NCBI RefSeq assembly: GCF_006716445.1
Contig: NZ_VFPA01000001.1
Coordinates: 1,674,001-1,738,000, forward strand
Reading direction: 5' to 3'
Source of the DNA: Pseudonocardia kunmingensis
GTDB lineage: Bacteria; Actinomycetota; Actinomycetes; Mycobacteriales; Pseudonocardiaceae
DNA length: 64,000 nt
The first letter of the stretch is position 1, and each line of letters starts with the position of its first letter. Below the pieces are notes generated by a model. That model saw only the letters and a list, made by a program, of their open reading frames with translations. It was not told the DNA's origin and made no database searches. Positions 2,138 through 46,596 of this stretch are shown here, in pieces. A program made the translations under genes and the position numbers.

Positions 2138-2186
2138 GACGAACGGCACTCTCGTCGGCTAGGTACCGACGAGAGTGCCGTTCGTC
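2138..2186. repeat. Family A dispersed palindrome, copy 1
   Basis: A perfect inverted repeat: 21-bp arms at 2138-2158 and 2166-2186 around the 7-nt loop CTAGGTA. The left arm begins GACGAACGGCAC. It follows fbiD by 15 bp. Near-identical copies lie at 12080, 18420, 39378 and 45989. It could end fbiD transcripts, but there is no T-run, and the repeat family suggests more than a simple terminator. Confidence 0.9.
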
Positions 2187-2223
2187 GGCTTGGGGCCCGT
2201 CACCGCTACGACCCATCCTTCCT

Positions 2224-2239
2224 TATCCATCCTCGGATA
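2224..2239. promoter_or_regulatory. Possible operator upstream of the HTH gene
   Basis: Inverted repeat TATCC (2224-2228), six bases, GGATA (2235-2239), in an AT-rich patch (GGGAATAAT follows) just upstream of the ATG at 2257. It is in the right place for autoregulation by the small HTH protein or for a promoter. Position and symmetry are the only evidence. Confidence 0.35.
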
Positions 2240-2256
2240 GGGAATAATGCGGAAGC

Positions 2257-2667
2257 ATGCAGCAGGATTGGTACTCCGTGGAACAGGTCGCCGACCGGCT
2301 CGGCCTGCACGTCCGCACGGTGCGCAGTTACGTGCGGGACGGGCGGCTCGAGGCGGTCCGCATCGGGAAGCAGTACCGGATCGCCCGCGCCGACCTGGAG
2401 GCCCTCACCGGACGTCCGACGGCCGCGCCCACCCGCGGGGTGCAGGTCACGAGCATCGTCGACGTCGATGCGGTCGACGCCCCCGAGGCGGAGCGGATCG
2501 CGGGCGTCCTCACGGGCCTGCCCCGGGGCACCGCCGAGCCGAGACCCCGGATCGAGACCGTCCACGACCCCGCGCGGGCCCGCCTGAAGATCGTGGTCGT
2601 CGCGCGGCTCGACGAGACCGTCGAGCTGCTGCGGTTCGTCCGCACCCTGACCGAGGACGCGGCGTGA
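2257..2667 (+). CDS. Small excisionase/MerR-like helix-turn-helix protein
   Basis: A 136-residue protein with an N-terminal winged helix: YSVEQVADRLGLHVRTVRSY then VRIGKQYRIARADLE, typical of the HTH_17 (excisionase-like) fold, within residues 5-50. The rest has no motif I recognise, but its last 40 residues (KIVVVARLDETVELL) look like a compact alpha/beta domain that may bind a partner or ligand. It overlaps the next gene by four bases (GTGA), so a DNA-binding protein and a tyrosine-phosphatase-like protein are made together. No integrase or phage gene is near, so a role in excision is unlikely; a transcription regulator is the safer reading. Confidence 0.75.
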   Translation: MQQDWYSVEQVADRLGLHVRTVRSYVRDGRLEAVRIGKQYRIARADLEALTGRPTAAPTRGVQVTSIVDVDAVDAPEAERIAGVLTGLPRGTAEPRPRIETVHDPARARLKIVVVARLDETVELLRFVRTLTEDAA

Positions 2668-3110
2668 GCCCGCTCACCGGTGCGGTCGCCCTCCCCGACG
2701 GCACCCTCGTGCGCGGCCGCGGGAGGCGCGAGGGGCTCCCCGCCGGGCCCCTCCCCGACTTCGGCCTGTACCTGGGCCACCCGGACCGCCCGCGGCGCGC
2801 CCCGTGGCGGCCCGACTGGCCCGCCGAGTGGGTCGACTGGCCGGATTTCCGCGTGCCGCGTGATCCCGACGACGCGGCCGCGAAGATCATCGAGGCGTAC
2901 GGGCTCGCCCGGTCCGGGCAGCGCGTCGAGATCGCGTGCACCGGTGGCACCGGTCGGACCGGCACGGTGATCGCCTGCATGGCGGTGCTGGCCGGGCACC
3001 CCGTCGCCGACGCGCGCGCCTGGACACGCCGCCACTACCGCCCCCGCGCCGTCGAGACGCCCGGTCAGCACCGGTGGATCCGGTGGTTCGCCACCCACCG
3101 TTCACCCTGA
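2664..3110 (+). CDS. Protein-tyrosine phosphatase-like protein
   Basis: A 148-residue cytosolic protein with the phosphatase loop IACTGGTGRTG. Cys92 and Arg98 form the C-X5-R signature of cysteine-based phosphatases, followed by the usual Thr. The acidic general acid could be in DPDDAA around residues 67-73, though that is less clear. The GTG start at 2664 overlaps the stop of the HTH gene. At this length it is near the minimum for a dual-specificity fold. The substrate could be a protein, nucleotide or lipid; nothing in the sequence decides. Another phosphatase-like function on the same scaffold is possible. Confidence 0.7.
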   Translation: MSPLTGAVALPDGTLVRGRGRREGLPAGPLPDFGLYLGHPDRPRRAPWRPDWPAEWVDWPDFRVPRDPDDAAAKIIEAYGLARSGQRVEIACTGGTGRTGTVIACMAVLAGHPVADARAWTRRHYRPRAVETPGQHRWIRWFATHRSP

Positions 3111-3161
3111 TGTCGGTCACGGCCACGAGCACTCCCGGCGGTCGTGCGGAACAATCGCGGC

Positions 3162-5519
3162 GTGGGTGAGGACGCGAGCAGGACCCCGACCAACGGTGCG
3201 GGCGAGACGCCGCCCGCCCGACGCACCCGTCCGGCGCGGCGCGCGCCCCGGCCGTCCACGCGCCGGGTCCACGCGGCGAGCAGCACGCTCCCCGCGGGCG
3301 CCTCGGCCCCCGCGGAGCGTGCGGCGCCCGGCCCGGCCGCGCCGGCCACCGGCGTGCGCACCGCGAACCCGCCGCTGGGCTCGTCCTCGACGCCCGCGGC
3401 CGCGGTGCCGATCAGCCCACCGGCGCGCACGCCGGCCCCCGGCTCTGAGCTCCCCGACGACCGCTACCTCAACCGCGAGCTGTCCTGGCTCGACTTCAAC
3501 GCGCGCGTGCTCGCCCTCGCCGAGGACCCCAGCCAGCCGCTCCTGGAGCGCGCCAAGTTCCTGGCGATATTCGCCTCGAACCTCGACGAGTTCTACATGG
3601 TGCGCGTCGCCGGCCTGAAGCGCCGCGACGAGACCGGCCTCGCCGTCCGCAGCGCCGACGGGCTCACGCCGCGCGAGCAGCTGGCCCGCATCGCCGCCCG
3701 CACCCAGGCCATCCAGGAGGCGCACGCCCGCGTGTTCCTCGACCACGTGCGCCCCGAGCTCGAGGAGCAGGGGATCTCCATCCTGCGCTGGCGCGACCTG
3801 TCCGAGCAGCAGCGCGAGCGGCTGTCGGCGTACTTCTCCGCGCAGGTCTTCCCGGTGCTCACGCCGCTCGCGGTCGACCCGGCGCACCCGTTCCCCTACA
3901 TCTCCGGCCTGTCGCTGAACCTGGCCGTCACCGTCCGCGACCCCGACGGGCGCACGGAGCGCTTCGCGCGGGTCAAGGTGCCCAACAACGTGCCGCGGCT
4001 GGTGCGGGTGGCCAACGACGACGACACCGTCACGTTCCTGCCCATCGAGGACCTGATCTCCGCCCACCTGCACGAGCTGTTCACCGGCGTCGAGGTCGCC
4101 GAGGTCCACGCGTTCCGCGTCACCCGCAACGCCGACCTCGAGGTGGAGGAGGACCGCGACGAGGACCTCCTGCAGTCGCTCGAGCGCGAGCTCGCCCGTC
4201 GCCGGTTCGGCCCGCCGGTGCGCCTCGAGGTCACCGACACGATGAGCGAGCACGTGCTGGAGCTGCTGCTGCGCGAGCTCGACGTCGACCCGCACGACGT
4301 CATCACGGTGCCGGGGCTGCTCGACCTCACCGCCCTGTGGGCCGTGCACGGCGTCGACCGCCCCGACCTCAAGGACGACACCTGGGTGCCGGCCACGCAC
4401 CCGGCCTTCGCCGACCGCGAGACCCCGCGCAGCGTGTTCGCCACCCTGCGGGAGGGCGACGTGCTGGTGCACCACCCCTACGACTCGTTCTCCACGAGCG
4501 TGCAGCGGTTCATCGAGCAGGCCGCGGCCGACCCGAACGTCCTCGCGATCAAGCAGACGCTCTACCGCACGTCCGGCGACTCCCCGATCGTCGACGCCCT
4601 CATCGACGCCGCCGCGGCCGGCAAGCAGGTCGTCGCGCTCGTCGAGATCAAGGCGCGGTTCGACGAGCAGGCCAACATCCGCTGGGCGCGCGAGCTGGAG
4701 AAGGCGGGCGTGCACGTCGTCTACGGGCTGGTGGGGCTGAAGACGCACTGCAAGACCTCGCTGGTGGTGCGGCAGGAGGGCTCGACGATCCGGCGCTACT
4801 GCCACGTCGGCACCGGGAACTACAACCCCAAGACCGCCCGGCTCTACGAGGACCTGGGCGTGCTCACGGCCGACCCGGTCATCGGCGCCGACCTCGCCGA
4901 CCTGTTCAACTCGCTCACCGGCTACTCCCGCCAGACCTCCTACCGCAGCCTGCTCGTGGCGCCCTACGGGGTGCGGCGCGGGATCGTGCGGCGCATCGAG
5001 GACGAGATCGAGGCCAAGCGCGCCGGGCGCGACGCCGGCGTGCGCATCAAGGTCAACTCGCTCGTCGACGAGCAGGTGATCGACGCGCTGTACCGGGCCT
5101 CGCAGGCGGGTGTGCCGGTGGACGTCGTGGTCCGTGGGATCTGCGCGCTGCGCCCGGGACGCCCGGGGCTCTCGGAGAACATCCGCGTGCGCTCGATCCT
5201 CGGCCGGTTCCTGGAGCACTCGCGGGTGTTCCACTTCGCCGACGCCGACGAGTACTGGATCGGCAGCGCCGACATGATGCACCGCAACCTGGACCGGCGC
5301 GTCGAGGTGCTGCTGCGCGTCGCCGACCCGCGCCTGGCCGCCAAGCTCGGGGAGATGCTCGACTCCTGCATGGACCCGGCCACCCGCTGCTGGACCCTGC
5401 ACGCCGAAGGCCCGTGGGAACCCTCGCCCTCCCCCGGGTCGGGGGCGTCACCGGTGCGGGACCACCAGGCGGAGATGATGCTGCGCCACGCCGTCACCCC
5501 CGCTGCGGAGGCCGAGTGA
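3162..5519 (+). CDS. ppk: Polyphosphate kinase (PPK1)
   Basis: Reversibly polymerises the gamma-phosphate of ATP into inorganic polyphosphate. About 785 residues. A low-complexity Pro/Ala/Arg leader of roughly 95 residues precedes the conserved core, which begins [17 protein letters not shown]; then come [16 protein letters not shown] and the C-terminal phosphotransfer domains. His529 in LKTHCKTS is the expected autophosphorylated residue and His707 in MMHRNLDRR the second catalytic histidine. Start choice is uncertain: GTG at 3162, or the in-frame GTG at 3144. The gene overlaps mutT1 by four bases, as in the ppk1-mutT1 pair of mycobacteria. The long disordered leader is unusual for PPK1 but common in this kind of genome. 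Confidence 0.95.
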
Positions 5520-6436
5520 CCGCGCCGCGAGTCATGGAGCCCACCGCCGCCGACGTGCTGGCCGCCGGAGCCGTGCTCTGGCGTCCCGGCGCCCGCGGCG
5601 TCGAGATCGCGCTGGTGCACCGGCCCCGCTACGACGACTGGTCCTTCCCCAAGGGCAAGCTCGACGCGGACGAGACGATGCCGTTCGCCGCCGTCCGCGA
5701 GATCGCCGAGGAGACCGGGCAGCAGGCCCGGCTCGGGCCGGTGCTCGGCGACGTCCGCTACACCGTGCCCGACGGCGCGAAGCTCGTGCGGTACTGGGCG
5801 GCCGAGGCGCGCGGGGGCGAGTTCGCCCCCGGCGAGGAGACCGACGAGCTGCGCTGGGTCGACCTCGCGCACGCCGCCGACATGCTGAGCTACAAGCACG
5901 ACGTCGAGGTGCTCGAGCAGTTCGCCCGGATCGGCCCACCCGCATCGGTGATCGCCCTCGTCCGGCACGCGAAGGCCGGCAGCCGCAACCAGTGGGAGGG
6001 CGAGGACGCGCTGCGCCCGCTGTCGGGCTCCGGCCGCGAGCAGGCCCAGCAGCTCGACCCGTTCCTGCGCCTGTTCGGCCCCGACCGGCTGGTGAGCGCG
6101 CCGCCCGTGCGCTGCCGCGACACCCTCGTGCCCCTGGCGGGGCAGCTGGACCTGGCGATCGGCGACGAGCCGCTGTTCGGCGAGGCCGCCTACGGGGACG
6201 ACCAGGCCGGCGCGCTCGCCCGGCTCCGCGAGCTGGCCGAGGTGCCCGGGGTCACCGTCGTGTGCAGCCAGGGCGGCGTCGTCCCCGGCCTCGTCGGCGC
6301 CCTCGCGACCGGCGCCCACCTGCCCGGGGTCGACCCGGACGACCTCCCCTCGAAGAAGGGCAGCACCTGGCTGCTGACCTTCGGGCCGGGCGGCGAGGTG
6401 CGCGCGGCCGACTACTACGAGCGCCCCACCGGCTGA
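5516..6436 (+). CDS. mutT1: MutT1-type Nudix hydrolase with C-terminal histidine phosphatase domain
   Basis: A 306-residue two-domain protein. The N-terminal Nudix box begins GKLDADE near residue 47 and ends REIAEETGQ, matching GX5EX7REUXEEXGU; a C-terminal histidine-phosphatase domain carries LVRHAKAG near residue 150 and a second-half CSQGGVV motif. In mycobacteria MutT1 hydrolyses diadenosine polyphosphates and 8-oxo-dGTP, and the phosphatase half removes further phosphate; that function is inferred here. The GTG at 5516 overlaps the ppk stop (GTGA); an in-frame ATG at 5534 is the alternative. Its 3' end overlaps the convergent phosphatase gene by 22 bp, so no terminator separates them. 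Confidence 0.92.
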
Positions 6437-7017
6437 ACCGCCTCCGCTCCCGCACGGATGTTGTAGCCGTGCAGGCGGGCGCCGTCGACGCCGAGGTCGA
6501 GCACGGTGAGGCTGGCCGGCCCGACCGGCACGATCCGCGCCGGTTCGAGCCCGAGCAGGTGCCGCAGGACCGCACGGATCGGCCCGCCGTGGGTGACGAC
6601 CAGCACCACGCCCCCACCCGGATCGGCCCGCAGGTCGGCCACGCCGGCCGCGACCCGTTCGGTGAGGGCCGCGAACGGCTCACCACCGGGCGGGGTGAAC
6701 CGCCCGGCCCGCCAGGCGGCGTAGGCCCCGCCGCGCTCGCGCAGCACCGCGGTGCGCAGGCCGGTCCAGTCCCCGAGGTCGGCCTCCTGCCAGCGCGCGT
6801 CGTGGCGCTCGCCGGGGAAGCCGAGCAGCTCGGCCGTCTCGCGGGTGCGCGCCAGCGGCGAGGTCACCACGCACGCCGGGGCGTGCGCGGCCACCACGGG
6901 GGCGAGTGCGCTCGCCTGCGCGCGTCCGGTGGCGGACAGCGGGATGTCCCGGTCGCCCTGGAGGCGGCGCTCGGCGTTCCACACCGTCTCGCCGTGGCGG
7001 ACCAGCAGCAGCCTCAT
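6415..7017 (-). CDS. Histidine phosphatase family protein (phosphoglycerate mutase-like)
   Basis: A 200-residue cytosolic phosphatase. LLVRHGETVWN at residues 4-14 holds the catalytic RHG; PLARTRETAELL supplies the second Arg, QEADLGDWTG the acidic region, and VVTHGGPIRAV the second His. The start ATG overlaps the stop of the ABC ATPase gene (ATGA), so it is the last gene of the importer operon at 7014-11953. That position suggests it dephosphorylates the imported compound or a product of it. Family members also act on 3-phosphoglycerate-like sugars, alpha-ribazole phosphate and broad substrates, so the precise reaction cannot be given. It meets mutT1 tail to tail with a 22-bp overlap. Confidence 0.88.
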   Translation of the reverse strand: MRLLLVRHGETVWNAERRLQGDRDIPLSATGRAQASALAPVVAAHAPACVVTSPLARTRETAELLGFPGERHDARWQEADLGDWTGLRTAVLRERGGAYAAWRAGRFTPPGGEPFAALTERVAAGVADLRADPGGGVVLVVTHGGPIRAVLRHLLGLEPARIVPVGPASLTVLDLGVDGARLHGYNIRAGAEAVQPVGRS

Positions 7018-9901: not shown

Positions 9902-11091
9902 TCCAGCGTCAGCAGCAGGTCGGCGACCTCGCGGCGGCGCTCGGCGACGGCGGCCGGGTCGATCGACCACGCCCCGAGCTCCTCGAGGGACACGGCGTCG
10001 GCGGGCGCCGTGACGTCGGTGCGCGTCGGGTAGTCGCCGGGCACGTAGAAGGGCGCGTAGCCGGGACCGCCGGTCGCGGAGCCGTCGCCCATCAGGAAGT
10101 CGACCAGCAGCCGCGCGGCGGCCGGGTGCGGGGTGTCCGCGGTGAGGGCCAGCAGGGCCGGGAACGCGATGCCCGGAGCCGGTGCGACGCCCGTCGCGGC
10201 CTGCAGCGCCCAGCCCTCGTCCTCGTTGTCGCGCCGGTCGGAGTAGGAGGTGAACCCGATCGGCGGCGCCGCTTGCCCACGCTGCCCGATCGCGGCGTTG
10301 ACGTTGTCGGTGTCGTCGACCAGGACCACGCCGTTCGCGTAGAGGTCGGCGATCCACTGCTCGCCCGCGCCCGTGATGCCCTCGTCGAGCTGCACCGGGG
10401 CGCCGCGCAGCTGCTCGTGGGCGGCCGCCATCTCGTCCGAGCGCAGCACCACCTCGGTCATGAGGTCGAGGTAGTCGCCGCGCACCTGCGGGTCGACCAT
10501 GACGACCCGGCCGTTCCACTCCGGGTCGGTGAGCTGCCACAGGTTGGTGACCGGCGGCCCGTCGGGGTGGGCCTCCTCGTTGTACACCAGGGTCTTGGTC
10601 GACAGCCGGTTCGCCAGCAGCGGCGCGGCGTGCTCGGCGGGGAGCGCGCCGGCCACCCGCGGCGGCACGTAGTTGCGCAGCAGACCCGCGGCCAGCAGCT
10701 CGTCGAGCACGACGGGGGCGTCGGAGAGGTAGGCGACGTCGGCGCCCGGTGCGCCCGCCGCGGCCTCGGCCTTGATGCGCGCGATCTGCTCGGTGGAGGA
10801 GATGTCGGTGGCGACGACGTCGACGCCGGGGTACGTCGCCTCGAACTCCGCCTCGACCTCGGCGATGCGGCTGGTGAACGAGTACACCGCCACCTGCCCC
10901 TCCTGCCGGGCCTGGGCGTGCAGCTCCTCGACGGTGGCGGTGTCGAGGGGGTCGGCCGCCGGGGGTGGCGTCGGAGCCGGGGTGGGGCTGCCGCCGCCGC
11001 AGGCGGTCAGCAGCAGCGCGAGGGCGGCGGCGCCCGCGGCGAGGCAGCGCGTGGAGTGGTGGTCCACAGTGGACGGACGGGACGCGGTCAT
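9898..11091 (-). CDS. ABC transporter substrate-binding lipoprotein (iron/phosphonate-like)
   Basis: A 397-residue exported lipoprotein: positively charged start, hydrophobic stretch and lipobox LLTAC with Cys31 as the lipidated residue, then a Pro/Thr linker. The body has the layout of type II binding proteins (VAVYSFTSRIAEVEAEFEA early; later TDISSTEQIARIKAEAAAG and PGADVAYLSD). This resembles Fe(III) and 2-aminoethylphosphonate binding proteins; sugar phosphates are also possible. I cannot point to an iron-binding Tyr pair with confidence. GGAG precedes the ATG at 11091. It follows the RpiR gene by 25 bp and starts a chain of overlapping genes. Confidence 0.87.
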   Translation of the reverse strand: MTASRPSTVDHHSTRCLAAGAAALALLLTACGGGSPTPAPTPPPAADPLDTATVEELHAQARQEGQVAVYSFTSRIAEVEAEFEATYPGVDVVATDISSTEQIARIKAEAAAGAPGADVAYLSDAPVVLDELLAAGLLRNYVPPRVAGALPAEHAAPLLANRLSTKTLVYNEEAHPDGPPVTNLWQLTDPEWNGRVVMVDPQVRGDYLDLMTEVVLRSDEMAAAHEQLRGAPVQLDEGITGAGEQWIADLYANGVVLVDDTDNVNAAIGQRGQAAPPIGFTSYSDRRDNEDEGWALQAATGVAPAPGIAFPALLALTADTPHPAAARLLVDFLMGDGSATGGPGYAPFYVPGDYPTRTDVTAPADAVSLEELGAWSIDPAAVAERRREVADLLLTLE

Positions 11092-11116
11092 GGTCGCTCC
11101 GCAGAGAAGGGTCGGG

Positions 11117-11953
11117 TCAGGTGTCGAAGCGCTCGAGCAGCTCCTCGAGCCGCTCGAGCGCGGTGGTGGTGCGGCCCGCCGCGGCGCGGGCGATGGTCAG
11201 CACGAGGGCGTTGACCACGGCCATCGGCACGGTGAGGGACTGGAACTCGCGGCCGTTGCCCCGCGGGGCGGCCAGCACGGTCGTCGACGCGGCGCCGAGG
11301 TCGTCGCCCAGCACGTCGGTCACCAGCACCACCGGGGCGCCGACCTCGTGCGCCGTCGCGAGCAGGGGGCGCAGCGTCCGCGGCGGGCGGCGAAAGGCGA
11401 GCGCGACGACGAGGTCGTCCCGGTGCAGGGACACCAGCTCCTCGGCGAGGTCGCGGTCGGAGCCGGGGAGGTCGACGACCGGCAGCCCGAACCGGCGCAG
11501 CCGGCGCGCGAGCAGGGCCGACAGGACGGTGGCGTTGCCGCGCGCGTAGACCAGCACGCGCCGCGCGGCCAGGACGCGCGCAGCCACCCCGTCGAGCTCC
11601 TCCTGGGCCACCGCCCGCGCCACCCCCCGCAGTGCGGCTACCTCGTCGTCGACCAGCCCGGCGACCAGGTCCTCGTCCGGGCTGCGGTCCAGGCGCCTGC
11701 GGACGCGGGCGGCGGCGTCGACACCCTCGAGCAGCTCGGACTGCAACGCCGAGCGCAGCTGCGGGTAGCCCGCGTAGCCCAGCTTCTTGGCCAGCCGGGT
11801 GGCGGTGGCCACGTGCACCCCGGCGCGCTCGGCGACCTGCTCGGCGGGCAGGAAGGCCGCCTCGGTGGGGTGCGAGAGCAGGACGTCGACGACGCTGCGG
11901 TCCGCGGGCGACAGGCGCCCGCGGTGCTCGTCGATCCGGTCGCGGAGGGGCAC
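11117..11953 (-). CDS. MurR/RpiR family transcriptional regulator
   Basis: About 278 residues: an N-terminal HTH_6 domain (LSHPTEAAFLPAEQVAERAG and VATATRLAKKLGY) then a SIS sugar-phosphate-binding domain (RRVLVYARGNATVLSALLAR, LVVALAFRRPPRTL). RpiR proteins sense phosphosugars. It heads the same-strand series with the importer genes and is their likely regulator. I chose GTG at 11953 (MPLRDRIDEHRGRLSPADRS, the normal family N-terminus); a longer frame runs to 12091 but crosses the repeat at 12080. A strong palindrome lies 27 bp upstream. A phosphosugar sensor, an importer and a phosphatase together suggest uptake of a phosphorylated compound. Confidence 0.88.
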   Translation of the reverse strand: MPLRDRIDEHRGRLSPADRSVVDVLLSHPTEAAFLPAEQVAERAGVHVATATRLAKKLGYAGYPQLRSALQSELLEGVDAAARVRRRLDRSPDEDLVAGLVDDEVAALRGVARAVAQEELDGVAARVLAARRVLVYARGNATVLSALLARRLRRFGLPVVDLPGSDRDLAEELVSLHRDDLVVALAFRRPPRTLRPLLATAHEVGAPVVLVTDVLGDDLGAASTTVLAAPRGNGREFQSLTVPMAVVNALVLTIARAAAGRTTTALERLEELLERFDT

Positions 11954-11967
11954 GGCGCCGACGGTAT

Positions 11968-12003
11968 CTGCAAAGAAACTTGCAGCCAATGGCTGAGCTG
12001 CAA
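11968..12003. promoter_or_regulatory. Candidate RpiR operator
   Basis: TTGCAGC (11980-11986), ten bases, GCTGCAA (11997-12003): a perfect 7-bp inverted repeat just upstream of the RpiR start. A further CTGCAAA half-site lies at 11968-11974. The cluster of identical half-sites in an otherwise AT-richer patch fits an autoregulated operator for a dimeric or tetrameric regulator. Confidence 0.5.
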
Positions 12004-12079
12004 ATTTGCCCTCAACAGCAGGCGTCGCGGAGGTGACGAGCCGGCGGCCGGGAGAAGCGGTCGTGCGCAGGATTCGCAT

Positions 12080-12128
12080 GACGAACGGCACTTTCGTCGG
12101 CTAGGTACCGACGAAAGTGCCGTTCGTC
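12080..12128. repeat. Family A dispersed palindrome, copy 2
   Basis: Perfect 21-bp arms at 12080-12100 and 12108-12128 around CTAGGTA. Relative to copy 1, the stem has CTTTCG in place of CTCTCG and the opposite arm has changed to match (CGAAAG), so pairing is kept by a two-sided change. The right flank CGGGTGGGAGCCTGTCGCCG is shared with copy 3. Confidence 0.9.
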
Positions 12129-12162
12129 CGGGTGGGAGCCTGTCGCCGTGACACCGCTCCTG

Positions 12163-12228
12163 GCGATCACCGCGGCGAGAAGTATGTGAGCGCCTCGCGA
12201 GGACCCTCGTGTGCGACTCGAGCCGATC
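12163..12228. repeat. Family B imperfect palindrome, copy 1
   Basis: A roughly 65-bp element running from GCGATCACCGCGGCGAGAAG to GTGCGACTCGAGCCGATC. It shares layout and several blocks with the elements at 17830-17955, 18540-18602 and 44041-44480. It sits 35 bp past family A copy 2, between rpiR and the end of hupB. This is the most diverged of the copies. Confidence 0.55.
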
Positions 12229-12270
12229 TTCCGGTCGGCTCGTCCAGCCAGCCACGCCGTCCCGCCGGTG

Positions 12271-12876
12271 CTACTTCTTCGGCTTGGCCTTCTTGCCCTT
12301 GTCGGCCTTGGCCGCCTTCTCGGGGTCCTTCACCGGGCCCTTGACCGGAGCCGCCGGCTTCGCCTTCGCGGCCTTCTCACCCTTCCCCGCCTTCGCGGGC
12401 GCGGCCTTCGCGGGCGCGGCCTTCGTGGGAGCGGCCTTCGTGGGCGTCGCCGCCTTGCGGGCCCTCGCGGGCTTCCGGGGCTCCGGGGCGGCGGGCGCCG
12501 CGTCGTCCGCCGCGTCCCGCGACTCCGCGAAGGAGGCCGCCGCCCGGGCCGTCTGCGCCGGGCGCGAGCGGGTGGCGGCGGCCCGCGGGGCGGGCGTCGC
12601 GCTCCCGCCGACGGCGCTGCGGAACGACGCACCCGGCCGGAAGGCGGGCACGGTGGTGGCCGGCACGTCGACGGCCTCGCCGGTGCGCGGGTTGCGGGCG
12701 GTGCGCGCCGCCCGGGCCCGGCCCTCGAAGACCCCGAAGCCCGTGATCGTCACCGAGTCGCCGGAGCGGACGGTGTCGACGATGGTTCCGAGCAACCCCT
12801 CGACGGCGGCGGCCGCCGTGCGCCGGTCGCCCCCGAGGCGCTCGGCGAGCGCGTCCACGAGCTGGGTCTTGTTCAT
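12271..12876 (-). CDS. hupB: HU-family nucleoid protein with lysine-rich tail
   Basis: A 201-residue DNA-bending protein. Residues 1-90 are the HU fold ([39 protein letters not shown] with the DNA-arm NPRTGE). The remaining 110 residues are a basic Ala/Lys/Pro tail with [17 protein letters not shown]-type repeats, the histone H1-like extension seen in mycobacterial and streptomycete HupB. It compacts the chromosome and shields DNA. It follows leuD by 24 bp on the same strand, as in M. tuberculosis, and may be read partly from the leuCD promoter. The gap upstream of its own ATG is too short to show a clear promoter. Confidence 0.95.
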
Positions 12877-12900
12877 GCCCGCGAACCTACCCCGGACCGC

Positions 12901-14906: not shown

Positions 14907-14926
14907 GGCGGCCCTCCTCGCTGGAC

Positions 14927-14964
14927 GTCTCACATTTCGGGAAGTTAGTATCGGCTCGTGAGAC
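14927..14964. promoter_or_regulatory. leuC/ndgR divergent operator and promoter
   Basis: GTCTCAC (14927-14933) and its inverse GTGAGAC (14958-14964) face each other across 24 bases. Between them TAGTAT (14946-14951) is a good actinobacterial -10 for ndgR, six bases before the GTG at 14958, so the ndgR transcript is probably leaderless and the right half-site overlaps its first codons. A regulator bound here could repress both genes. Confidence 0.6.
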
Positions 14965-15659: not shown

Positions 15660-15774
15660 CCGCACGATCGTGGCACGTCGCCGCACCCAGCTGATCGGGT
15701 GAGCCTCCGACCGCTAACGTGGTTTCGTCGTACCCGATGAATACACAGAGTCGTCGGAGGGGCGACGTCATCTG

Positions 15775-18419: not shown

Positions 18420-18468
18420 GACGAACGGCACTTTCGTCGGCTAGGTACCGACGAGAGTGCCGTTCGTC
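18420..18468. repeat. Family A dispersed palindrome, copy 3
   Basis: Arms at 18420-18440 and 18448-18468 around CTAGGTA. The left arm has CTTTCG as in copy 2 while the right has CGAGAG as in copy 1, leaving one G-U-type pair in an otherwise perfect stem. Flanks on both sides match the other copies: GGATCCGCAT to the left (as in copy 1) and CGGGTGGGAGCCTGTCGCCG to the right (as in copy 2). Confidence 0.9.
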
Positions 18469-18795: not shown

Positions 18796-18800
18796 CGATG

Positions 18801-18873
18801 TAGCCCCGACGGGATTTGAACCCGCGCTACCGCCTTGAGAGGGCGGCGTCCTAGGCCGCTAGACGACGGGGCC
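18801..18873 (-). tRNA. tRNA-Glu (CTC anticodon)
   Basis: A 73-nt cloverleaf. The acceptor strand GGCCCCG pairs with CGGGGCT (one G-U) before the discriminator A; the anticodon arm CCGCC-CTCTCAA-GGCGG places CTC at 34-36; GGTTCAAATCC forms the T loop. CCA is not encoded. It lies 50 bp downstream of tRNA-Gln and shares its transcript. Confidence 0.96.
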
Positions 18874-18923
18874 TCGCTGAAACGCTGCGATTGAGTTTAT
18901 CAGACCGCTTCTGGAGCGTTTCG

Positions 18924-18995
18924 CTGGGGTACCAGGACTCGAACCTAGACTAACTGAACCAGAATCAGTCGTGCTGCCAATTACACCATACCCCA
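18924..18995 (-). tRNA. tRNA-Gln (CTG anticodon)
   Basis: A 72-nt cloverleaf with acceptor TGGGGTA pairing with TACCCCA, discriminator G, anticodon arm ACTGA-TTCTGGT-TCAGT placing CTG at 34-36, and T loop GGTTCGAGTCC. CCA is not encoded. It starts 46 bp after gltX on the same strand. With no GlnRS gene in the window, charging is expected through GltX then GatCAB. Confidence 0.96.
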
Positions 18996-21885: not shown

Positions 21886-21904
21886 CACACCGACAACCGC
21901 GCCG

Positions 21905-21928
21905 GCACACCGACTGCAGTCGGTGTGC
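21905..21928. terminator. Bidirectional terminator palindrome
   Basis: GCACACCGACTG followed directly by its inverse, a perfect 24-bp palindrome, flanked by an outer pair of the same unit (CACACCGA at 21888 and TCGGTGTGCG near 21941). It sits between two convergent genes and can form nested hairpins on either strand. No U-run is present. Confidence 0.6.
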
Positions 21929-21972
21929 GAGCACAGCGATCGGTGTGCGACGCAGCCGGCGGGGCTGCGACC

Positions 21973-30366: not shown

Positions 30367-30489
30367 TAAGGGCAGCCTGCAATAACGCCGGCCGGTCGGG
30401 CGCCGGCGTCGAGGCACAGGTCACGGCCCGGCGCCTCGCGCATCGTGATCGCGCTGACCAGGGTCACCAGCGCTCACCGCCCTAGGAGG

Positions 30490-30542
30490 TTCAGGAAAGC
30501 CACATTCATGAACCTGCAGGACATGAATGTGGCTTTCCTGAA
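30490..30542. repeat. Family C palindrome, left copy
   Basis: Perfect 21-bp arms (30490-30510 and 30522-30542) around an 11-nt loop that itself contains the palindrome CCTGCAGG. An identical 53-bp sequence lies at 31574-31626, on the other side of the gene at 30598. It is AT-richer than the surroundings. Confidence 0.95.
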
Positions 30543-30597
30543 CCGAGTTCTCTCGTTCTGGCCCGCCTTCCGACCGCTTCCCGGATCATCACCAGGC

Positions 30598-31595
30598 ATG
30601 GCCACGCGGACGCGCGCACTGTCGGAGCAGGTGCGGGCAGCGTTCCCGCAGGGCGTGGCAACGGCGCGGCAACTCGTCGCGATCGGACTCAGCGAGCGCA
30701 CCGTCTACAAGCGCTGCCTTCCTGGCGGACCATGGCGCCGGTTGCTCCCCGGCGTCATCGCGCTCTTCACGGGAACGCCGACTCCGGAGCAGTACGTGCT
30801 GGCCGCGCTGCTGCTGTGCGGTCCTGATGCCGTGGTCACCGGGCTCGAGGCCTGCCGACGGCACGGCTTCCGTCGAGGGCCGGTCAGGGCGGGCCGCAGG
30901 ACCAACGGACCCGTCGAGACCCACATGCTCGTCCCCGCGACCCGTCAGGTGCGCTCAGTGGGATACCTGCACGTCGAGCGGACGAGCCGGTTGCCGCGAG
31001 CGACCGTTCGAGGCGGGGTACCGCTCGCACCGGCGGCGAGGGCCTGCATCGATGCAGCTCGCCGCCTCGACGATCCGGGAGAGGTGACCGAGCTCCTCGC
31101 CGAGGCGGTGCAACAGGGTCACTGCACGGTTGGCGCGCTCCTCCAGGAGCTGGATGACACCACGCGCCGAGGCACGGCGATTCCTCGCGATGTGATGGGT
31201 GACGTCGCCGCCGGCATCCGCTCTGCGGCGAACGGCAGGCGAAGGCGCTCTGGCCACGGACAGGCCTTCCGCCGGCGTGGTGGAACGTCGCGGTGCACGA
31301 CGAGTCCGGCGCGTTCCTGGGGATCGCCGACTGCTGGGTGGACGACGTGGCGATGGTGTGGGAGACCGAGTCGACCGAGTGGCATCTGAGCCCGGCCGAC
31401 CATGATGCGACGGTGGAACGCGCCGCAGCCTTCACGGCGGCGGGAGCGGTCTACATCGCGACGAAACCGCGCAAGCTCCGGTCGGACCCGAATGGCGTCG
31501 CGGCGACCCTGCGCGCGGCGTACGGACGTGCGCGCGCGAGGCCTCGACCGGGCCTCAAGGCCGTCCCGCACGGTTCAGGAAAGCCACATTCATGA
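30598..31595 (+). pseudogene. AbiEi-like / DUF559-like protein, frameshifted
   Basis: Reading from ATG 30598 gives an N-terminal wHTH-like region (TARQLVAIGLSERTVYKRCL) and a middle domain as in AbiEi-type antitoxin-like proteins, up to about DVAAGIRSA near 31226. The frame then degenerates into Arg/Ser/Trp-rich text and stops at 31389. The expected C-terminus continues one frame over from about 31227: GERQAKALWPRTGLPPAWWN, then DCWVDDVAMVWETESTEWHL, the usual nuclease-like ending of this actinobacterial family. Loss of one base near 31225-31229 explains it. The stop TGA (31593-31595) is inside the right family C palindrome. GC content is a little lower than neighbours. A sequencing error is possible. 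Confidence 0.72.
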
Positions 31596-31626
31596 ACCTG
31601 CAGGACATGAATGTGGCTTTCCTGAA
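31574..31626. repeat. Family C palindrome, right copy
   Basis: Identical over 53 bp to the sequence at 30490-30542: arms 31574-31594 and 31606-31626. It overlaps the last codons and stop of the frameshifted gene and lies 12 bp from the end of leuB, so it may also terminate both transcripts. Confidence 0.95.
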
Positions 31627-31638
31627 CCAACCCGAGCC

Positions 31639-33544: not shown

Positions 33545-33546
33545 GG

Positions 33547-34458: not shown

Positions 34459-34460
34459 GC

Positions 34461-36083: not shown

Positions 36084-36230
36084 GGCGGTTGCAGGGCTCC
36101 CGGATCGAGGTCTGGTACGCATCCGATCGTAGAGCCGCTGCGTGCGTACGTCCTCGGCGGCGTGGGCGAGGGCGACACGCGAACGGGACGACTCCGCGGA
36201 GCCCTGCCGGGCGGCCGGGGCGGGAGGCCG

Positions 36231-37229: not shown

Positions 37230-37259
37230 GGCGGAACCTTTCGTTGCGGGACACGAGGG

Positions 37260-38968: not shown

Positions 38969-39009
38969 GGCCGCGACGCTAGGAGCTGACACCGGTAGGA
39001 GGTTCCAGC

Positions 39010-39360
39010 ATGGGTGAGGGACGTCTCACGATCGGCGAACTGGTGGCGCGCACCGGGGTGGGTCACCGGCTGCTGCGCCACTACGAGGAGCAGGGGCTCC
39101 TCGCGCCCGAGCGCACCGCGGGCGGGCACCGGCTCTACGACCCCTCCGCGGTCGAGGCGGTCCGCCGCATCCGGATGCTGCTCGACGCCGGGCTCCCGAC
39201 CCGGGTCATCCGACAGGTCGTGCCCTGCTTCGACGACGCCGGGGCACGCATCGACGCGTGCGTGGCCGGCGTCCTGCAGGCGCACGTCGCCGCGCTGCAG
39301 CAGCGGATGTCCGACCTCGCCGCGCAGCGGTCGCTGGCCCTGCAGCTGCTCCCCGCGTGA
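39010..39360 (+). CDS. MerR family transcriptional regulator
   Basis: 116 residues: N-terminal MerR HTH (LTIGELVARTGVGHRLLRHY, GLLAPERTAGGHRLYDPSAV), then a short coiled-coil dimerisation helix (AHVAALQQRMSDLAAQRS). It has a single Cys near residue 73 and no paired metal-binding cysteines, so an organic effector is more likely. AGGAGG precedes ATG 39010. Its divergent neighbour, the aldo/keto reductase, is the expected target. Confidence 0.9.
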   Translation: MGEGRLTIGELVARTGVGHRLLRHYEEQGLLAPERTAGGHRLYDPSAVEAVRRIRMLLDAGLPTRVIRQVVPCFDDAGARIDACVAGVLQAHVAALQQRMSDLAAQRSLALQLLPA

Positions 39361-39377
39361 AGATCCCGGCCGGAACT

Positions 39378-39426
39378 GACGAACGGCACTCTCGTCGGTA
39401 CCTGACCGACGGGAGTGCCGTTCGTC
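39378..39426. repeat. Family A dispersed palindrome, copy 4
   Basis: Arms of 22 bp (39378-39399, 39405-39426) around ACCTG; one G-U-type pair (CTCTCG opposite CGGGAG). The loop differs from the others and fits an inverted orientation: read on the minus strand it is preceded by GAGCCTGTCGC, the flank seen on the right of copies 2 and 3. It lies between the convergent merR and ilvC genes. Confidence 0.88.
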
Positions 39427-39435
39427 GCGACAGGC

Positions 39436-42892
<3,457 letters not shown>

Positions 42893-42932
42893 CTGCTGAT
42901 CGCTCCGCATTGGGGTTTCGGGACCTGGACAG

Positions 42933-42971
42933 AAAAAAACCCCCGACCGTCACGCGGGACGGAACGAGGGT
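42933..42971 (-). terminator. ilvB attenuator terminator
   Basis: Minus-strand stem built from ACCCTCGTTCCGTC and GACGGTCGGGGGT, followed by seven T. It lies between the ilvB leader peptide and ilvB. A competing pair, GCGCGTCG (42973-42980) with CGACGCGC (43007-43014), overlaps the leader gene and could prevent or delay it. Confidence 0.88.
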
Positions 42972-42998
42972 GGCGCGTCGACGACCGAGTGACTTCGC

Positions 42999-43046
42999 TC
43001 AGGCAGCGACGCGCCTGCGAAGTACGAGAATCCGGACGGCGGACAT
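42999..43046 (-). CDS. Leader peptide MSAVRILVLRRRVAA of the ilvB attenuator
   Basis: ATG TCC GCC GTC CGG ATT CTC GTA CTT CGC AGG CGC GTC GCT GCC TGA. Val, Ile and Leu codons make up six of 15. Stalling at any of these would uncouple the downstream hairpins, so the operon senses all three branched-chain amino acids. This kind of leader before ilvB is known in Corynebacterium and other actinobacteria. Confidence 0.88.
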   Translation of the reverse strand: MSAVRILVLRRRVAA

Positions 43047-43138
43047 GGGGGCGACGGTAGCTTCCCAGCGGAGCGCACGTCAATTCCGTGAGAAGGCCGT
43101 ACCAGATCGTGGGACGCCGCGGCGCGCCCCGAACCGGC

Positions 43139-43226
43139 GAGTCTCCCGTCCGCACACGGCGAGTCTCCCGTCCGGACAGCGTGAGTCTCCCGTCCGGACA
43201 GCGCGAGTCTCCCGTCCGGGCATCGT
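43139..43226. repeat. Four tandem 22-bp repeats
   Basis: GAGTCTCCCGTCCG begins at 43139, 43161, 43183 and 43205, an exact 22-bp spacing, with the remaining eight bases ACAGCGC-like. Copies 2-4 are the most alike. They lie in the gap between the divergent ilvB leader and the CDP-alcohol transferase gene. A 22-bp period is two helical turns, so repeated sites would face the same side of the DNA. Confidence 0.9.
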
Positions 43227-43261
43227 TGGGCCGGGTGAGCGCAGGGCCCGTAGTTCCCCGG

Positions 43262-43891
43262 ATGTGGCGGCCTCGGCCGCGGAGAACGCTCGGCCGGGTG
43301 AACCGCGGCCTGTACGCCCTCAAGCCCTGGTACGCCGACCGCCTCGCCGGCACCCGCCGTCGCTTGGCCGCGCGCGGGGTGGCTCCCGGCACCGTCACGG
43401 CCGCCGGCGTCGGCTTCGGCGCACTGGCCGGGCTCGTGCTCGCCACGGTGCCCAGCGCGCCCGTGGCCGCGGTGCTCGTCGCCGCGCTGCTCGCGCTGCG
43501 CCTTGCGGCCGCGAACCTGGACGGCGCCCTCGCCCGCGACACCGGCGCCAGCAGCCGCTGGGGCGCGGTCGTCAACGAGCTCGGCGACCGCGCGGCCGAG
43601 CTCGCCGTCCTCGCCGGGTGCCTCGCGTTCGCACCCCCGTGGCTGGTGCTGCTGGCGATGCTGGCGGCCAGCGCCCCGTCGTGGGTGGCGCTCGCCGGTG
43701 CCGCGGCCGGAGCACCCCGCACCAACGGCGGGCCGGTCGGCAAGACCGAACGCTGCCTGCTCCTGGTCGTCGTGGCCGCGCTGCCGGCCCACGCAGGCGC
43801 GCTGCTCACGGCACTGGCAGCCGGCTCGGCGGTGACCGCCGCGCTGCGACTGCGCACCCTGCACCGGACGCTCACCGCGGCCGCGCGGTGA
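43262..43891 (+). CDS. CDP-alcohol phosphatidyltransferase family protein with variant active site
   Basis: About 209 residues with five to six hydrophobic helices. The family signature DX2DGX2ARX8GX3DX3D appears as ANLDGALARDTGASSRWGAV then VNELGD: the first Asp is Ala and the third is Asn, while the second and fourth remain. The enzyme class swaps CMP for an alcohol on a CDP-lipid. With two metal/base ligands altered, activity may differ or be lost. ATG 43262 lies after the 22-bp repeats, which are not multiples of three and so should be non-coding. Same-strand cdsA and plsC genes follow. Confidence 0.75.
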   Translation: MWRPRPRRTLGRVNRGLYALKPWYADRLAGTRRRLAARGVAPGTVTAAGVGFGALAGLVLATVPSAPVAAVLVAALLALRLAAANLDGALARDTGASSRWGAVVNELGDRAAELAVLAGCLAFAPPWLVLLAMLAASAPSWVALAGAAAGAPRTNGGPVGKTERCLLLVVVAALPAHAGALLTALAAGSAVTAALRLRTLHRTLTAAAR

Positions 43892-44569
43892 GCAGGTTCA
43901 CGACGACGGGCAGCGGCCGGAGCAGACGGCGGCGAGCCCGGCCGCCCGGCGAACGGCCCGGCCAGGCAGAGCAGGAAGGTCCGGTGACCCTGCTGCCACC
44001 GAACGGACGGCGCCCAGGCCACGAGCAGACGACCGGTGAGCCGCACACCAGGGCTGCGCCGAGCGCCGTCACGTACGACTCGCACCGATCACCCATTGCT
44101 GATCGATGCGGGTCGCACACCAACGCTGCCGCCACCGCACGCACGTACGACTCGGATCGATCACCGGGTTGATCGATCCGAACGACACACCACGGCTGCC
44201 ACCCCCGCACCCAGGTACGACTCGAAGCGATCACCACCGACATCGATCCGAGCGGCACACCAGCGCTGCGCAGAGCACCGTCACGTACGACTCGGGCCGA
44301 TCACCCATTGCTGATCGATCCGAGCGGCACACCAGGGCTGCGGCGAGCACACTCACGTACGACTCGCAGGGATCACGCCCACCCGGGCCGCGCCGGTCGT
44401 CCGACCACGACCACCGTCACGTACGCCTCACCGCGATCACCCCGGGCGCGGCGGTCGCCATCGCGTGCGACTCGCGTGGATCAACCGGCGGGGCGGCCCG
44501 TAGGACTACGCACCCCGATCCGGTGCTCTCGCGGATGGGCGGCGGACTGATCGGCGACACGCTCTGCCC
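43892..44569. other. Gap dominated by a tandem repeat array
   Basis: No gene is supported. Open frames crossing it on both strands simply translate the repeats. 43892-44040 shows nothing definite; 44041-44480 is the family B array; 44481-44569 must hold the cdsA promoter. Confidence 0.75.
44041..44480. repeat. Family B tandem array
   Basis: ACGTACGACTCG or a close variant occurs at about 44071, 44143, 44213, 44283, 44354, 44419 and 44463, each followed by three bases and CGATCA-like sequence. Spacing is 72, 70, 70, 71, 65 and 44. Full units read GATCGATCCGAGCGGCACAC, CAGGGCTGCGGCGAGCAC, then TCACGTACGACTCG and GATCAC. Ends of each unit (GATC...CGAG and CTCG...GATC) can pair. Later units decay. 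Same family as 17830-17955 and 18540-18602. Confidence 0.88.
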
Positions 44570-45403
44570 ATGGATCCGGTGACCCTCACCCTCGGCGCGC
44601 TCGGCATCGGCGGGGCCGCGGTCGGTGCCGCGCGACGCGCCGAGCTGACGGCCCGCTGGCGGACCTGGTTGGTCGCCGCTCCGCTGGTGCTCGGCCCGCT
44701 GCTGGTCGGGGGCCAGGTCGGTGGGGCGGTGCTCGCGGCCGCGCTGGGGGCCGTCGCGGCCGTCGAGTTCGCCCACCTGGCCGCCCTGCCCCGCGCCGAC
44801 ACCGTCGGGCTGGTGCTGCGGATCGTCGGCGTCCCGGGCGTGGCGCTGCTCCGGCCGGACCTGCTCGGGCTGCTCCTCCCAGTGCTCGCGGTGTCCGCCG
44901 CGCTGCCCGCGCTGCTGGCGGGCGACACGGCGACCGGCGGGCGACGCGCCGCATACGGCACCTTCGGGACCCTGTGGATCGGCGGCGGCCTCGCGGGTCT
45001 CGCCGTACTCGAGCCGGGCGTCGCGGTCGCGGTCTGCCTCGCCGTGGCCGTCGCCGACGTCGGGGCGTGGTGCGGCGGGCGGCTGCTCGGCCGGCGCGGC
45101 CCGGGGGCGCGGCCGCTCTCGCCGCTGTCGCCGTCGAAGACGTGGGGCGGCGTCGTCGGCGCGATGCTCGCCGCGGCCGCGGTCCTGCTCGCGCTGGGGA
45201 GGCCGTCATTCGGGCTGCTGGTCGCGGTCGTGGCCGGCGGTGTGCTGGGCGACCTGCTGGAGTCGATGCTCAAGCGGGAGGCCGGGTGCAAGGACGCAGG
45301 CAGCTGGCTACCGGGCTTCGGCGGCCTGCTCGACCGGGTCGACTCGCTGCTGGTGGCGCTGCCGCTCGCGGTGCTGGTCACGCTGCCGGCGGGGTCGTGG
45401 TGA
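44570..45403 (+). CDS. cdsA: Phosphatidate cytidylyltransferase
   Basis: 277 residues, about seven membrane helices, converts phosphatidic acid and CTP to CDP-diacylglycerol. The C-terminal CDS signature is SMLKREAGCKDAGSWLPG then FGGLLDRVDS; the His normally before GG is Phe here. The usual SPSKTWGG is present (about residue 188). The gene overlaps the acyltransferase start by four bases. Together with the flanking transferase and acyltransferase it forms a three-step lipid set. It is probably a paralogue of the housekeeping CdsA, which would be elsewhere. Confidence 0.85.
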   Translation: MDPVTLTLGALGIGGAAVGAARRAELTARWRTWLVAAPLVLGPLLVGGQVGGAVLAAALGAVAAVEFAHLAALPRADTVGLVLRIVGVPGVALLRPDLLGLLLPVLAVSAALPALLAGDTATGGRRAAYGTFGTLWIGGGLAGLAVLEPGVAVAVCLAVAVADVGAWCGGRLLGRRGPGARPLSPLSPSKTWGGVVGAMLAAAAVLLALGRPSFGLLVAVVAGGVLGDLLESMLKREAGCKDAGSWLPGFGGLLDRVDSLLVALPLAVLVTLPAGSW

Positions 45404-46596
45404 GGGCGCGGGTCGCCGCGGCGCTGCGGCACCTGCTCTGGCGGCTGGTGCTCGCGGTGACCGGCGGTCTCACCGTCACGGGGTCGCTGCCGCGCGGCGG
45501 GTGCGTCGTCGTGGCCAATCACAGCTCGCACGCCGACACCGCGGCCCTCCTGGCCGCGTTGGACAGCCGGCACGCCCCGCGCGTCGCCGCCGCGGCCGAC
45601 TACTGGTTCGCCGGTGGGTGGCGTCCCGCGATCTGCCGGGCGCTGGCCGCGGCGTTCCCGGTGCGGCGCACCGGCGGTGGCAGCGTGGACATGGCCGCTG
45701 CCGTCGCGTTGCTGCGGGCCGGACGCGCCGTGGTCGTCTACCCGGAGGGGACGCGCGGGCAGGGCGCGCCCGGGCGCTTCCACTCCGGCGCGTTCCGCCT
45801 CGCCGAGGCCGCGGGCGTGCCGGTGGTGCCCGTCGGCATCGTCGGCACCCGGGAGCTGCTGCCCAAGCACGGCAGGCTGCGCCGCACGCGCGTGACGGTC
45901 CGCATCGGCGCGCCGATCCCCGCCGACCCGGAGACCGCCCGCGCCGAGGTCACCCGCCTCGCGAGCCTGCCGCGAACGGCACCGCCCGGACGAACGGCAC
46001 GCTCGTCGGCTAGGTACCGACGAGAGTGCCGTTCGTCGCGGGGGCGGGCGCGGGTCGCGCGGCTCGCGGAATCCCGCACGGGCCTCGCGCTCGTCGCGGC
46101 GTGGGCGGCGGCGGAGGCGGTCGTGTGGCCGCTGCTGCCGGAGTGCGTGCTGTTCGCGCTGGTGGTGGCGGCGCCGCGGGCCGGTCTGCGGCTGGTGCCG
46201 ACCGCCGTGCTGGCCAGCATGGCGGGTGGGCTCTGCACGCTGGCGCTGGGCGCGGCCGGCGCCGCACCGGCGGCCCCGCTGGTCACCGAGCGGATGCGCG
46301 TGGCGGTGGCGCAGCAGACGGCGGCGGAAGGTGCGTCCGCGGTGCGGCACCAGCCGCTGTCCGGGATCCCGTTCAAGGTCTACGCGGCCGAGGCCGGCCG
46401 GGCAGGGGCGGCTCCGCTGCCGTTCCTGGTGGCGGCGAGCACGCACCGGGGCGTGCGCATCGCCTCCGTCGGCACGGCGTGCGCGCTGCTCGGCGCCGGC
46501 CTGCACCGGTGGCCCCGCGCGTACCCCGCGGTCCTCCTCGCCGGCTACACCCTGTTCGCCGCGGGCCTCACGCTGGTCGTCCGCTGGTGGGGGTAG
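45400..46596 (+). CDS. PlsC-type acyltransferase fused to a YqaA/VTT-like membrane domain
   Basis: About 398 residues in one open frame. Residues 1-195 are a lysophospholipid acyltransferase: VVVANHSSHADTAAL (HX4D), AVVVYPEGTRGQG, VPVVPVGIVGTREL. Residues 197-213 are encoded by the family A palindrome (RTARSSARYRRECRSS). Residues from about 225 (LAESRTGLALVAAWAAAEAV, LPECVLFALVV, PLSGIPFKVYAAEAG) are a membrane protein normally separate from PlsC. No start codon lies in frame between the repeat and the first membrane helix, so the second domain is made only as a fusion. GTG 45400 overlaps the cdsA stop (GTGA). Confidence 0.8.
   Translation: MRARVAAALRHLLWRLVLAVTGGLTVTGSLPRGGCVVVANHSSHADTAALLAALDSRHAPRVAAAADYWFAGGWRPAICRALAAAFPVRRTGGGSVDMAAAVALLRAGRAVVVYPEGTRGQGAPGRFHSGAFRLAEAAGVPVVPVGIVGTRELLPKHGRLRRTRVTVRIGAPIPADPETARAEVTRLASLPRTAPPGRTARSSARYRRECRSSRGRARVARLAESRTGLALVAAWAAAEAVVWPLLPECVLFALVVAAPRAGLRLVPTAVLASMAGGLCTLALGAAGAAPAAPLVTERMRVAVAQQTAAEGASAVRHQPLSGIPFKVYAAEAGRAGAAPLPFLVAASTHRGVRIASVGTACALLGAGLHRWPRAYPAVLLAGYTLFAAGLTLVVRWWG
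45989..46037. repeat. Family A dispersed palindrome, copy 5, inside a coding frame
   Basis: Arms 45989-46009 and 46017-46037 around CTAGGTA, with one true mismatch (CACGCTCG against CGAGAGTG). It has no stop codon in the frame of the acyltransferase, which reads straight through. A partial extra copy of GCGAACGGCAC lies 15 bp upstream (45972). Confidence 0.9.

Follow-up and report, generated by a model that had tools for sequence, protein, structure and literature searches.

The 64,000-nucleotide stretch of Pseudonocardia kunmingensis DNA analyzed here (contig NZ_VFPA01000001.1, positions 1,674,001 to 1,738,000; hereafter the window) carries five copies of a 49-bp palindrome, named family A, that recurs throughout the source genome. 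Family A is probably a dispersed repeat resembling REPINs, which are hairpin-forming doublets of repetitive extragenic palindromic (REP) units, and bacterial interspersed mosaic elements (BIMEs). It would be an untagged form, without a REP-associated tyrosine transposase (RAYT), that is kept at gene ends as a two-way 3′-end hairpin. A preliminary description of the window, made from its letters, had likened the palindromes to REP elements and miniature inverted-repeat transposable elements (MITEs), a comparison that would have lost its footing had few further copies existed. Searching the whole source genome (G000; 9,138,787 bases, or 9.1 Mb, in 10 contigs) for the 21-base arm with up to three mismatches yielded 232 forward and 234 reverse matches, with 0 in the reversed control, which bears out dispersal on a large scale. 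These matches read as roughly 230 palindromes. The exact full palindrome, with the loop left free at 5-9 bases, was found in three stretches of a named species collection that may omit the window's own genome, all three from Pseudonocardia (two in Pseudonocardia sp. MH-G8 and one in the metagenome-assembled genome 73-21).

Within the window, the five palindromes sit exactly where they had first been placed (Table 1), with 21-bp arms and a 7-nt loop reading CTAGGTA in four copies and TACCTGA in copy 4. The earlier observations that the stem changes on both sides between copy 1 and copy 2 (CTCTCG/CGAGAG versus CTTTCG/CGAAAG) and that copies 3 and 4 each hold one T:G pair were reproduced, and copy 5 was found to contain a G:A mismatch that had not been described. 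The flanks are also shared as proposed, GGATYCGCAT being common to copies 1-3 and CGGGTGGGAGCCTGTCGCCG to copies 2 and 3. A chance origin of the window palindromes is excluded because 1.05 matches to the 12-mer GACGAACGGCAC (up to one mismatch) are expected in the window and 11 are present, a number reached by 0 of 100 shuffles.

Anatomy of the family A repeat

Anatomy and gene context were read in 60 stretches of ~20 kb from the source genome together with the window, 1,258,059 bases (1.26 Mb) in all. Every one of the 60 stretches was picked for holding an exact arm, so the arms are more alike there than they would be in an unchosen sample. The scan yielded 87 paired copies (86 of 49 bp and one of 52 bp) and 10 unpaired arms, the latter being excluded from the gene-context counts. 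The repeating unit is a weak palindrome of ~19 bp, GACGAACGGCACTTTCGTC, followed inward by an 11-bp spacer. The palindrome as a whole is thus a doublet of inverted units 30 bp apart. In the two types that were folded, the 19-mer forms a 6-bp stem with a 7-nt loop (-4.5 for the type of the source genome and -6.6 for that of G073, a genome from another genus), and the predicted fold of the whole 49-mer has an energy of -40.1 kcal/mol.

The hairpins are accompanied by sequence that lies outside the palindrome. The left flank GGGATYCGCAT (up to two mismatches) marks 44 of the 86 aligned copies, here called class A, whose consensus is GAAgCGGGATtCGCAT before the hairpin and cGGGtGGGaGCctg after it. 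The right flank GGGTGGGAGCC (up to three mismatches) is present in 33 of these 44 copies versus 10 of the 42 others, extending the flank sharing seen in the window to the sampled copies. Searches for the class A flanks on their own gave 59 and 20 loose matches. An exact hairpin core lies next to 39 and 17 of them; of the leftover 20 and 3, two (at loci L042 and L084) border variant hairpins and the others look chance-like by eye. In this loose search of the sampled source-genome stretches, no class A flank was seen apart from a family A hairpin. The stretches from relatives hold 2 and 1 loose matches, which were not inspected. Insertion into the loop of older hairpins was also considered as an origin and was rejected by matching left and right flanks against permuted partners, as 320 of 1000 permutations for class A and 485 of 1000 for class B were equally good. 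For class B, this means that the C-rich and G-rich flanks reflect composition and not copy-specific pairing.

A 30-bp register shared across genera

Inverted units lie at exactly 30 bp in 87 of the 90 multi-unit clusters of the sampled source-genome sequence. The same register is found in other genomes, each of which contributed few clusters (14 in G073, 3 in G060, 9 in G175 and 5 in G134). One continuous 400 kb of G073 holds 33 neighbor pairs, 26 of them at 30 bp (14 inverted and 12 direct) and the other 7 at 22-45 bp, with a longest array of 10 units in a row. The register likewise holds for 3 of 3 neighbor pairs in G060, 8 of 9 in G175 and 5 of 5 in G134, where one pair is direct.

A second palindrome family of the window, F2, has the same 19-11-19 layout as family A with other letters. 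The unit words of the two families have GAA-5 letters-CTTTC in common, and we therefore searched 297 genomes of the taxonomic family for the signature GAAN5CTYTC-N17-GARAGN5TTC without mismatches. The signature is present in 72 of these genomes and 15 of 46 genera, while its reversed control appears in one genome; copy numbers reach a maximum of 282 (G326), and the source genome holds 136. When the gap was freed to 9-25, matches were obtained in all 8 of the chosen high-count genomes. When it was allowed to range over 5-30 at 24 loci from 8 high-count genomes, several of these loci being one element met twice, 21 loci gave 23 full matches, all with a gap of 17. Six of the matches listed for the free-gap search, a listing confined to part of G164 and G326, are of another length. 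Outside the taxonomic family, the exact 15-mer was found at most once per genome in a sample of the order. Family A is one local version of a superfamily that keeps GAA/CTTTC, their mirror images and the 30-bp register while its other letters drift. One genus (g15) is split sharply, some of its species having 85-282 signature copies and others 0-9, so that a mover or reader of the element can be sought there by gene presence.

Position at gene ends

The preliminary description had suggested checking positions relative to gene ends, and a position near them is what we observed. Among the 87 copies, 37 lie between convergent genes, 37 between tandem genes, 9 between divergent genes and 4 inside genes, leaving 83 that are not inside called genes. 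Expectation from gap length is 18% convergent, 46% tandem and 35% divergent, giving a convergent excess (P = 4e-8) and a divergent deficit (P = 4e-7). In tandem gaps, the median distance from the unit core is 18 nt to the preceding stop and 88 nt to the start of the following gene. The hairpin contains the stop of several genes (TGA and TAG by reading; offsets of -2, -25 and -28), placed either in its opening letters or within the loop. Clusters are convergent in 6 of 9 cases in G175 and 5 of 5 in G134, and those of G073 comprise 5 convergent, 4 tandem, 2 divergent, 1 inside a gene and 2 at edges. In keeping with the earlier view that these are not simple terminators, the hairpins are not followed by the U-run of an intrinsic terminator, the 111 flanks having 1.40 T per 10 nt versus 1.49 in 571 random intergenic 10-mers.

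Stem folding and the ilvC 3′ end

The preliminary description took the G-U pairs of copies 3 and 4 as a sign that folding is selected, an argument that the source genome does not support. There, the T:G pair is the commonest state, being present in 50 of 86 copies. When the 37 tandem copies are read in transcript sense, the main pair is T:G in 12 and C:A in 11, and all stem positions together give 18 G-U and 13 A-C, with no clear preference. In this genome, then, G-U pairing gives no support to the idea of selection on the RNA.

Comparison across species at the 3′ end of ilvC, the gene beside copy 4, gives folding better support. Of the 62 genomes of the genus, 52 were fetched for this site, and all 52 gave it. 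In 45 of these 52 species, none of 520 shuffles equals the best palindrome lying within 150 nt, and 51 of 168 other gene ends of the source genome without family A exceed the 99% level of those shuffles. Judged by eye from the best palindromes, 22 of the 52 species have a hairpin of family A type, with differing stems; an automatic motif flag also gave 22 but a different set, as it picks up some chance matches and overlooks some of the variants. By eye, F2 type hairpins occupy the site in G044, G018, G021 and G011, and a GTGAGTGG/GTGAGCGG type does so in G058, G037, G016, G015 and G024, while the remaining species differ.

The units of the 22 family A type hairpins are offset by 30 bp in 15 species, 29 in 2, and 31, 25 and 18 once each, with 2 not measurable. 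Covariation was counted in 11 equal-length 49-mers from the 15 sites with an offset of 30, the 4 with shorter stems being excluded. In these sequences, 97.7% of stem cells pair, against 31-48% in slid controls, and 10 of 20 pairs are changed on both sides (28 cells), which none of 500 shuffles reached. Folding thus finds better support in these cross-species stem changes than in the G-U pairs of the source genome. Over all 22 hairpins in the ilvC sense, G-U outnumbers A-C by 17 to 6 (P = 0.017), which may be a faint sign that the RNA folds.

Turnover and the search for a mover

The arm is matched (up to two mismatches) in 32 of 62 genomes of the genus, the source genome included. Counts are 224/225 in the source genome, and the next highest are 47/48 and 34/42. 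In G036, the closest relative at these loci with 90-94% identity in long matches, no family A hairpin was found at the places of copies 1, 2, 3 and 5. Copy 5 gives the clearest of these absences because coding sequence aligns on both sides, and the aligned counterpart in G036 is without the palindrome; at the place of copy 1, G036 has a different 4.4-kb stretch. Both F2 copies are kept in G036, the one at 31572 with both flanks aligned and the one at 30488 with the right flank aligned and the left interrupted by ~1.3 kb. Judged from the family A copies missed in G036, the expansion of family A in this lineage looks recent.

A RAYT-type transposase, which the preliminary description had suggested looking for, did not appear, as the RAYT/IS200 transposase family Y1_Tnp has no match in the source genome. 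Among 12 carriers and relatives it is matched in one (G042, one match), and among 27 further genomes also in one (G088, three matches), which is one of the 15 high-count carriers of that set. Y1_Tnp is therefore unmatched in 37 of the 39 genomes tested, 12 of the 39 being low-count. Copy 3 with its flanks has no match in plasmids or phages. Three pairs among the 10 unpaired arms flank an insert. The family A hairpin at L055 is split in its loop by 2.7 kb of inserted sequence (9996-12731) that contains a group II intron reverse transcriptase/maturase. An unrelated MITE of ~170 bp with ends TGTCCCCCGCCGGAAGT sits at the loop CTAG of two further hairpins (L072, about 10022-10193; L084, about 10046-10217), so that family A seems to be a target for another element. 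Both kinds of insert are passengers and not movers as far as shown. No parent transposon was found among the unpaired arms of the 1.26 Mb, and no wider search was made. An informal look through the flanks of the sampled copies noticed no target duplication.

Weighing the explanations

The most likely role of family A is that of a two-way 3′-end hairpin. Its building block would be the ~19-bp weak palindrome, and its working element two inverted blocks 30 bp apart that form one 49-bp hairpin. We infer that the element is actively mobile, with a mover acting in trans. It would have multiplied in this lineage, settling or surviving mainly just after stop codons, where the transcribed hairpin would act in either direction to stop or protect the transcripts of convergent and tandem genes. 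Such a hairpin may at first have been tolerated and then kept after genes. Several points weigh against this. Nine copies lie between divergent genes and four within genes, in G060 both placed clusters are tandem, at a median distance from stops of as much as 332 nt, and the gene calls come from a simple, self-written codon-based caller that is unvalidated. The lack of a clear preference for G-U over A-C in the tandem copies leaves RNA folding not shown to be selected there. The sequences used for covariation were picked for equal length and exact register, and template switching during replication can keep palindromes perfect and thereby mimic covariation. None of the comparisons revealed a precise empty site bearing a target duplication. 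Finally, the direct 30-bp arrays of G073 form no long hairpin, and the register may therefore serve DNA binding and not RNA.

This last point is the strength of an explanation that we consider unlikely, namely that a DNA-binding protein occupies the units as operator-like sites, side by side in inverted or direct pairs with a spacing of about three helical turns, and that the hairpin is a by-product of symmetry. The register does hold for direct and inverted neighbors alike, the spacing, GAA and CTTTC are retained whereas the five intervening letters vary both between and within genomes, and the units are themselves weak palindromes. Such sites would be expected neither to avoid divergent gaps, where promoters lie (9 of 83 placed copies), nor to be as patchy among close species, unlike a conserved chromosome-organizing site, and across dialects the stems remain complementary over their full length, beyond the retained letters as well. 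The gene-end position of the copies, the strong palindromes that stand at the ilvC end and change in family, and those at other gene ends without family A would suit ordinary factor-independent terminators that are alike through GC-rich composition and position and are spread by gene conversion without being mobile. Streptomyces terminators, in the portion of the account used here (PMC12207403), are likewise long stable hairpins with few U residues. We nevertheless regard this explanation as quite unlikely, as the same 49-bp sequence stands at some 230 places, a non-hairpin left flank accompanies about half of the aligned copies and was not seen away from such hairpins, the 49-bp length is fixed across genera, there is no U-run, some copies lie inside genes, and most copies are absent from close relatives. 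It is very improbable that family A is a MITE, the remains of a shortened transposon whose arms are inverted ends moved in trans by a DDE-type transposase. Near-perfect inverted arms, high copy number, shared flanks and the lack of a Y1_Tnp match in the source genome are all compatible with it, but none of the three insert-flanking arm pairs (one around the 2.7-kb group II intron reverse transcriptase insert and two around the ~170-bp MITE) has a transposase gene between the arms, and inverted ends do not account for a 30-bp register that also occurs as direct arrays.

Building on the preferred reading of family A as an untagged, RAYT-less repeat kept at gene ends, a wider proposal can be put forward tentatively. 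Hairpins in the 30-bp register may form a superfamily with drifting dialects, found in 15 or more genera of a single actinobacterial family and spread by a new mover independently of RAYT. A dedicated protein or RNA-processing machine might read the GAA/CTTTC skeleton at its exact spacing, and the hairpins of family A and other families might serve as exchangeable 3′-end cassettes at ends such as that of ilvC. The superfamily is of interest as a large, patchy group of hairpins in actinobacteria with an unusually strict and easily searched rule. The conserved ilvC gene is followed by hairpins of different families in different species, and this site offers a direct test of the cassette role.

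Features of the window and the source genome

The coordinates of the family A and F2 copies and of neighboring genes are collected in Table 1. An Rfam search of the window returned two tRNAs only. Several other families of long palindromes lie between genes of the source genome, namely CACCTTGGAGCCGTACTGCTGTT, arrays of CTCGCACACCGACTGCAGTCGGTGTGCGAG, CGTGAGTGGATACGAGTGC, GGTATCGGTTGC, and GAGTCTCCCGTCCGGACAGC with 22-bp tandem repeats; such families occur in the window at 21886-21947, 43117-43226 and 60216-60261. A further dispersed motif, ACGTACGACTCGnnnCGATCA, is present in the window at 12199, 17863 and 44061-44486, and a similar form of it is found in G036. The contig that contains the window (C1) has 67 arm places among the matches listed. 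The reported completeness of the source assembly is 98.56%, and its reported contamination is 6.83%.

Table 1 Family A and F2 copies and neighboring genes, in positions of the 64,000-nucleotide window
Feature	Position	Strand	Remarks
CofC-like gene	1457-2122	+	15 nt separate its stop from copy 1
Family A copy 1	2138..2186	+	Inverted 19-bp units 2138-2156 and 2168-2186, 11-bp spacer
Family A copy 2	12080..12128	+	Between two minus-strand genes; class A sequence on both sides (12070-12079, 12129-12148)
Family A copy 3	18420..18468	+	Both class A flanks; long gap between convergent genes
tRNA-Glu and tRNA-Gln genes	18800-18995		Near copy 3
F2, first copy	30488..30544	.	CAGGAAAGCCACATTCATG; units 30492-30510 and 30522-30540
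F2, second copy	31572..31628	.	Letters identical to the copy at 30488
Family A copy 4	39378..39426	-	Between convergent genes, 9 nt from ilvC stop
ilvC (ketol-acid reductoisomerase)	39436..40440	-	KARI_N and KARI_C domains; anchor gene for cross-species comparison
Family A copy 5	45989..46037	+	Within acyltransferase-family open frame 45397-46596

Comparison with known systems

No description of family A repeats was found in searches of open PMC papers, and of six 13-mer words sought there, two occur, each in one plant paper. BIMEs are alternating REP clusters of enterobacteria. Family A shares with BIMEs its regularly spaced short palindromic units in alternating orientation, and differs in having mostly one doublet per site, a 30-bp register, another sequence and no RAYT found. 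In Neisseria, paired DNA uptake sequences act as terminators. They resemble family A as a short dialect word that is present genome-wide and often inverted at gene ends, although the word and the fixed spacing here are different. The long GC-rich terminators of Streptomyces, a high-GC actinobacterium, are comparable in that they follow genes, form long and stable hairpins and have little U tract; one sequence and length at hundreds of sites, as seen here, is not described in the portion of that account used for comparison (PMC12207403).

Tagged REPs offer a closer parallel. According to the parts of the survey drawn on here (Di Nocera 2013, PMC3733652), GTAG and CGTC REPs come predominantly from Proteobacteria, GTAG types going with RAYT enzymes and CGTC REPs being without a dedicated transposase, with their movement stated as open. 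The same parts place tagged REPs between convergent and unidirectional genes, near stop codons and sometimes supplying stops, with some units inside genes and inverted dimers predominating (PMC3733652), and the placement of family A, including supplied stop codons, matches this description. The CGTC REP has an unpaired tag, a stem of 8-9 bp, a loop of 4-5 nt and dimer spacers that are mostly 20-100 bp and variable, as far as those parts go (PMC3733652). In family A, by contrast, CGTC lies inside the paired 6-bp unit stem with a 7-nt loop, and the letters at this place are CGCC, CGCG or other in G073, G134 and G175. The consensus of the 86 aligned copies shows no GTAG at either end of the unit. 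The main text of PMC3733652 contains neither "Pseudonocardia" nor any word beginning with "actinobacter". Because neither the tag nor a RAYT was found, family A is not filed under the tagged REP families.

REPINs, as characterized in the portion of the original report used here, are REP doublets that form hairpins and are associated with a RAYT tyrosine transposase (Bertels and Rainey 2011, PMC3116915). Family A differs from that characterization in having no RAYT (Y1_Tnp) match in its carrier genome G000, in a unit spacing fixed at 30 bp across genera and in the absence of an unpaired REP tag. It agrees with it in being built of a short, imperfectly palindromic unit that is repeated in inverted doublets, each forming one hairpin, and that is extragenic and present in many copies. 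With REPs in general it shares the bias toward gene ends.

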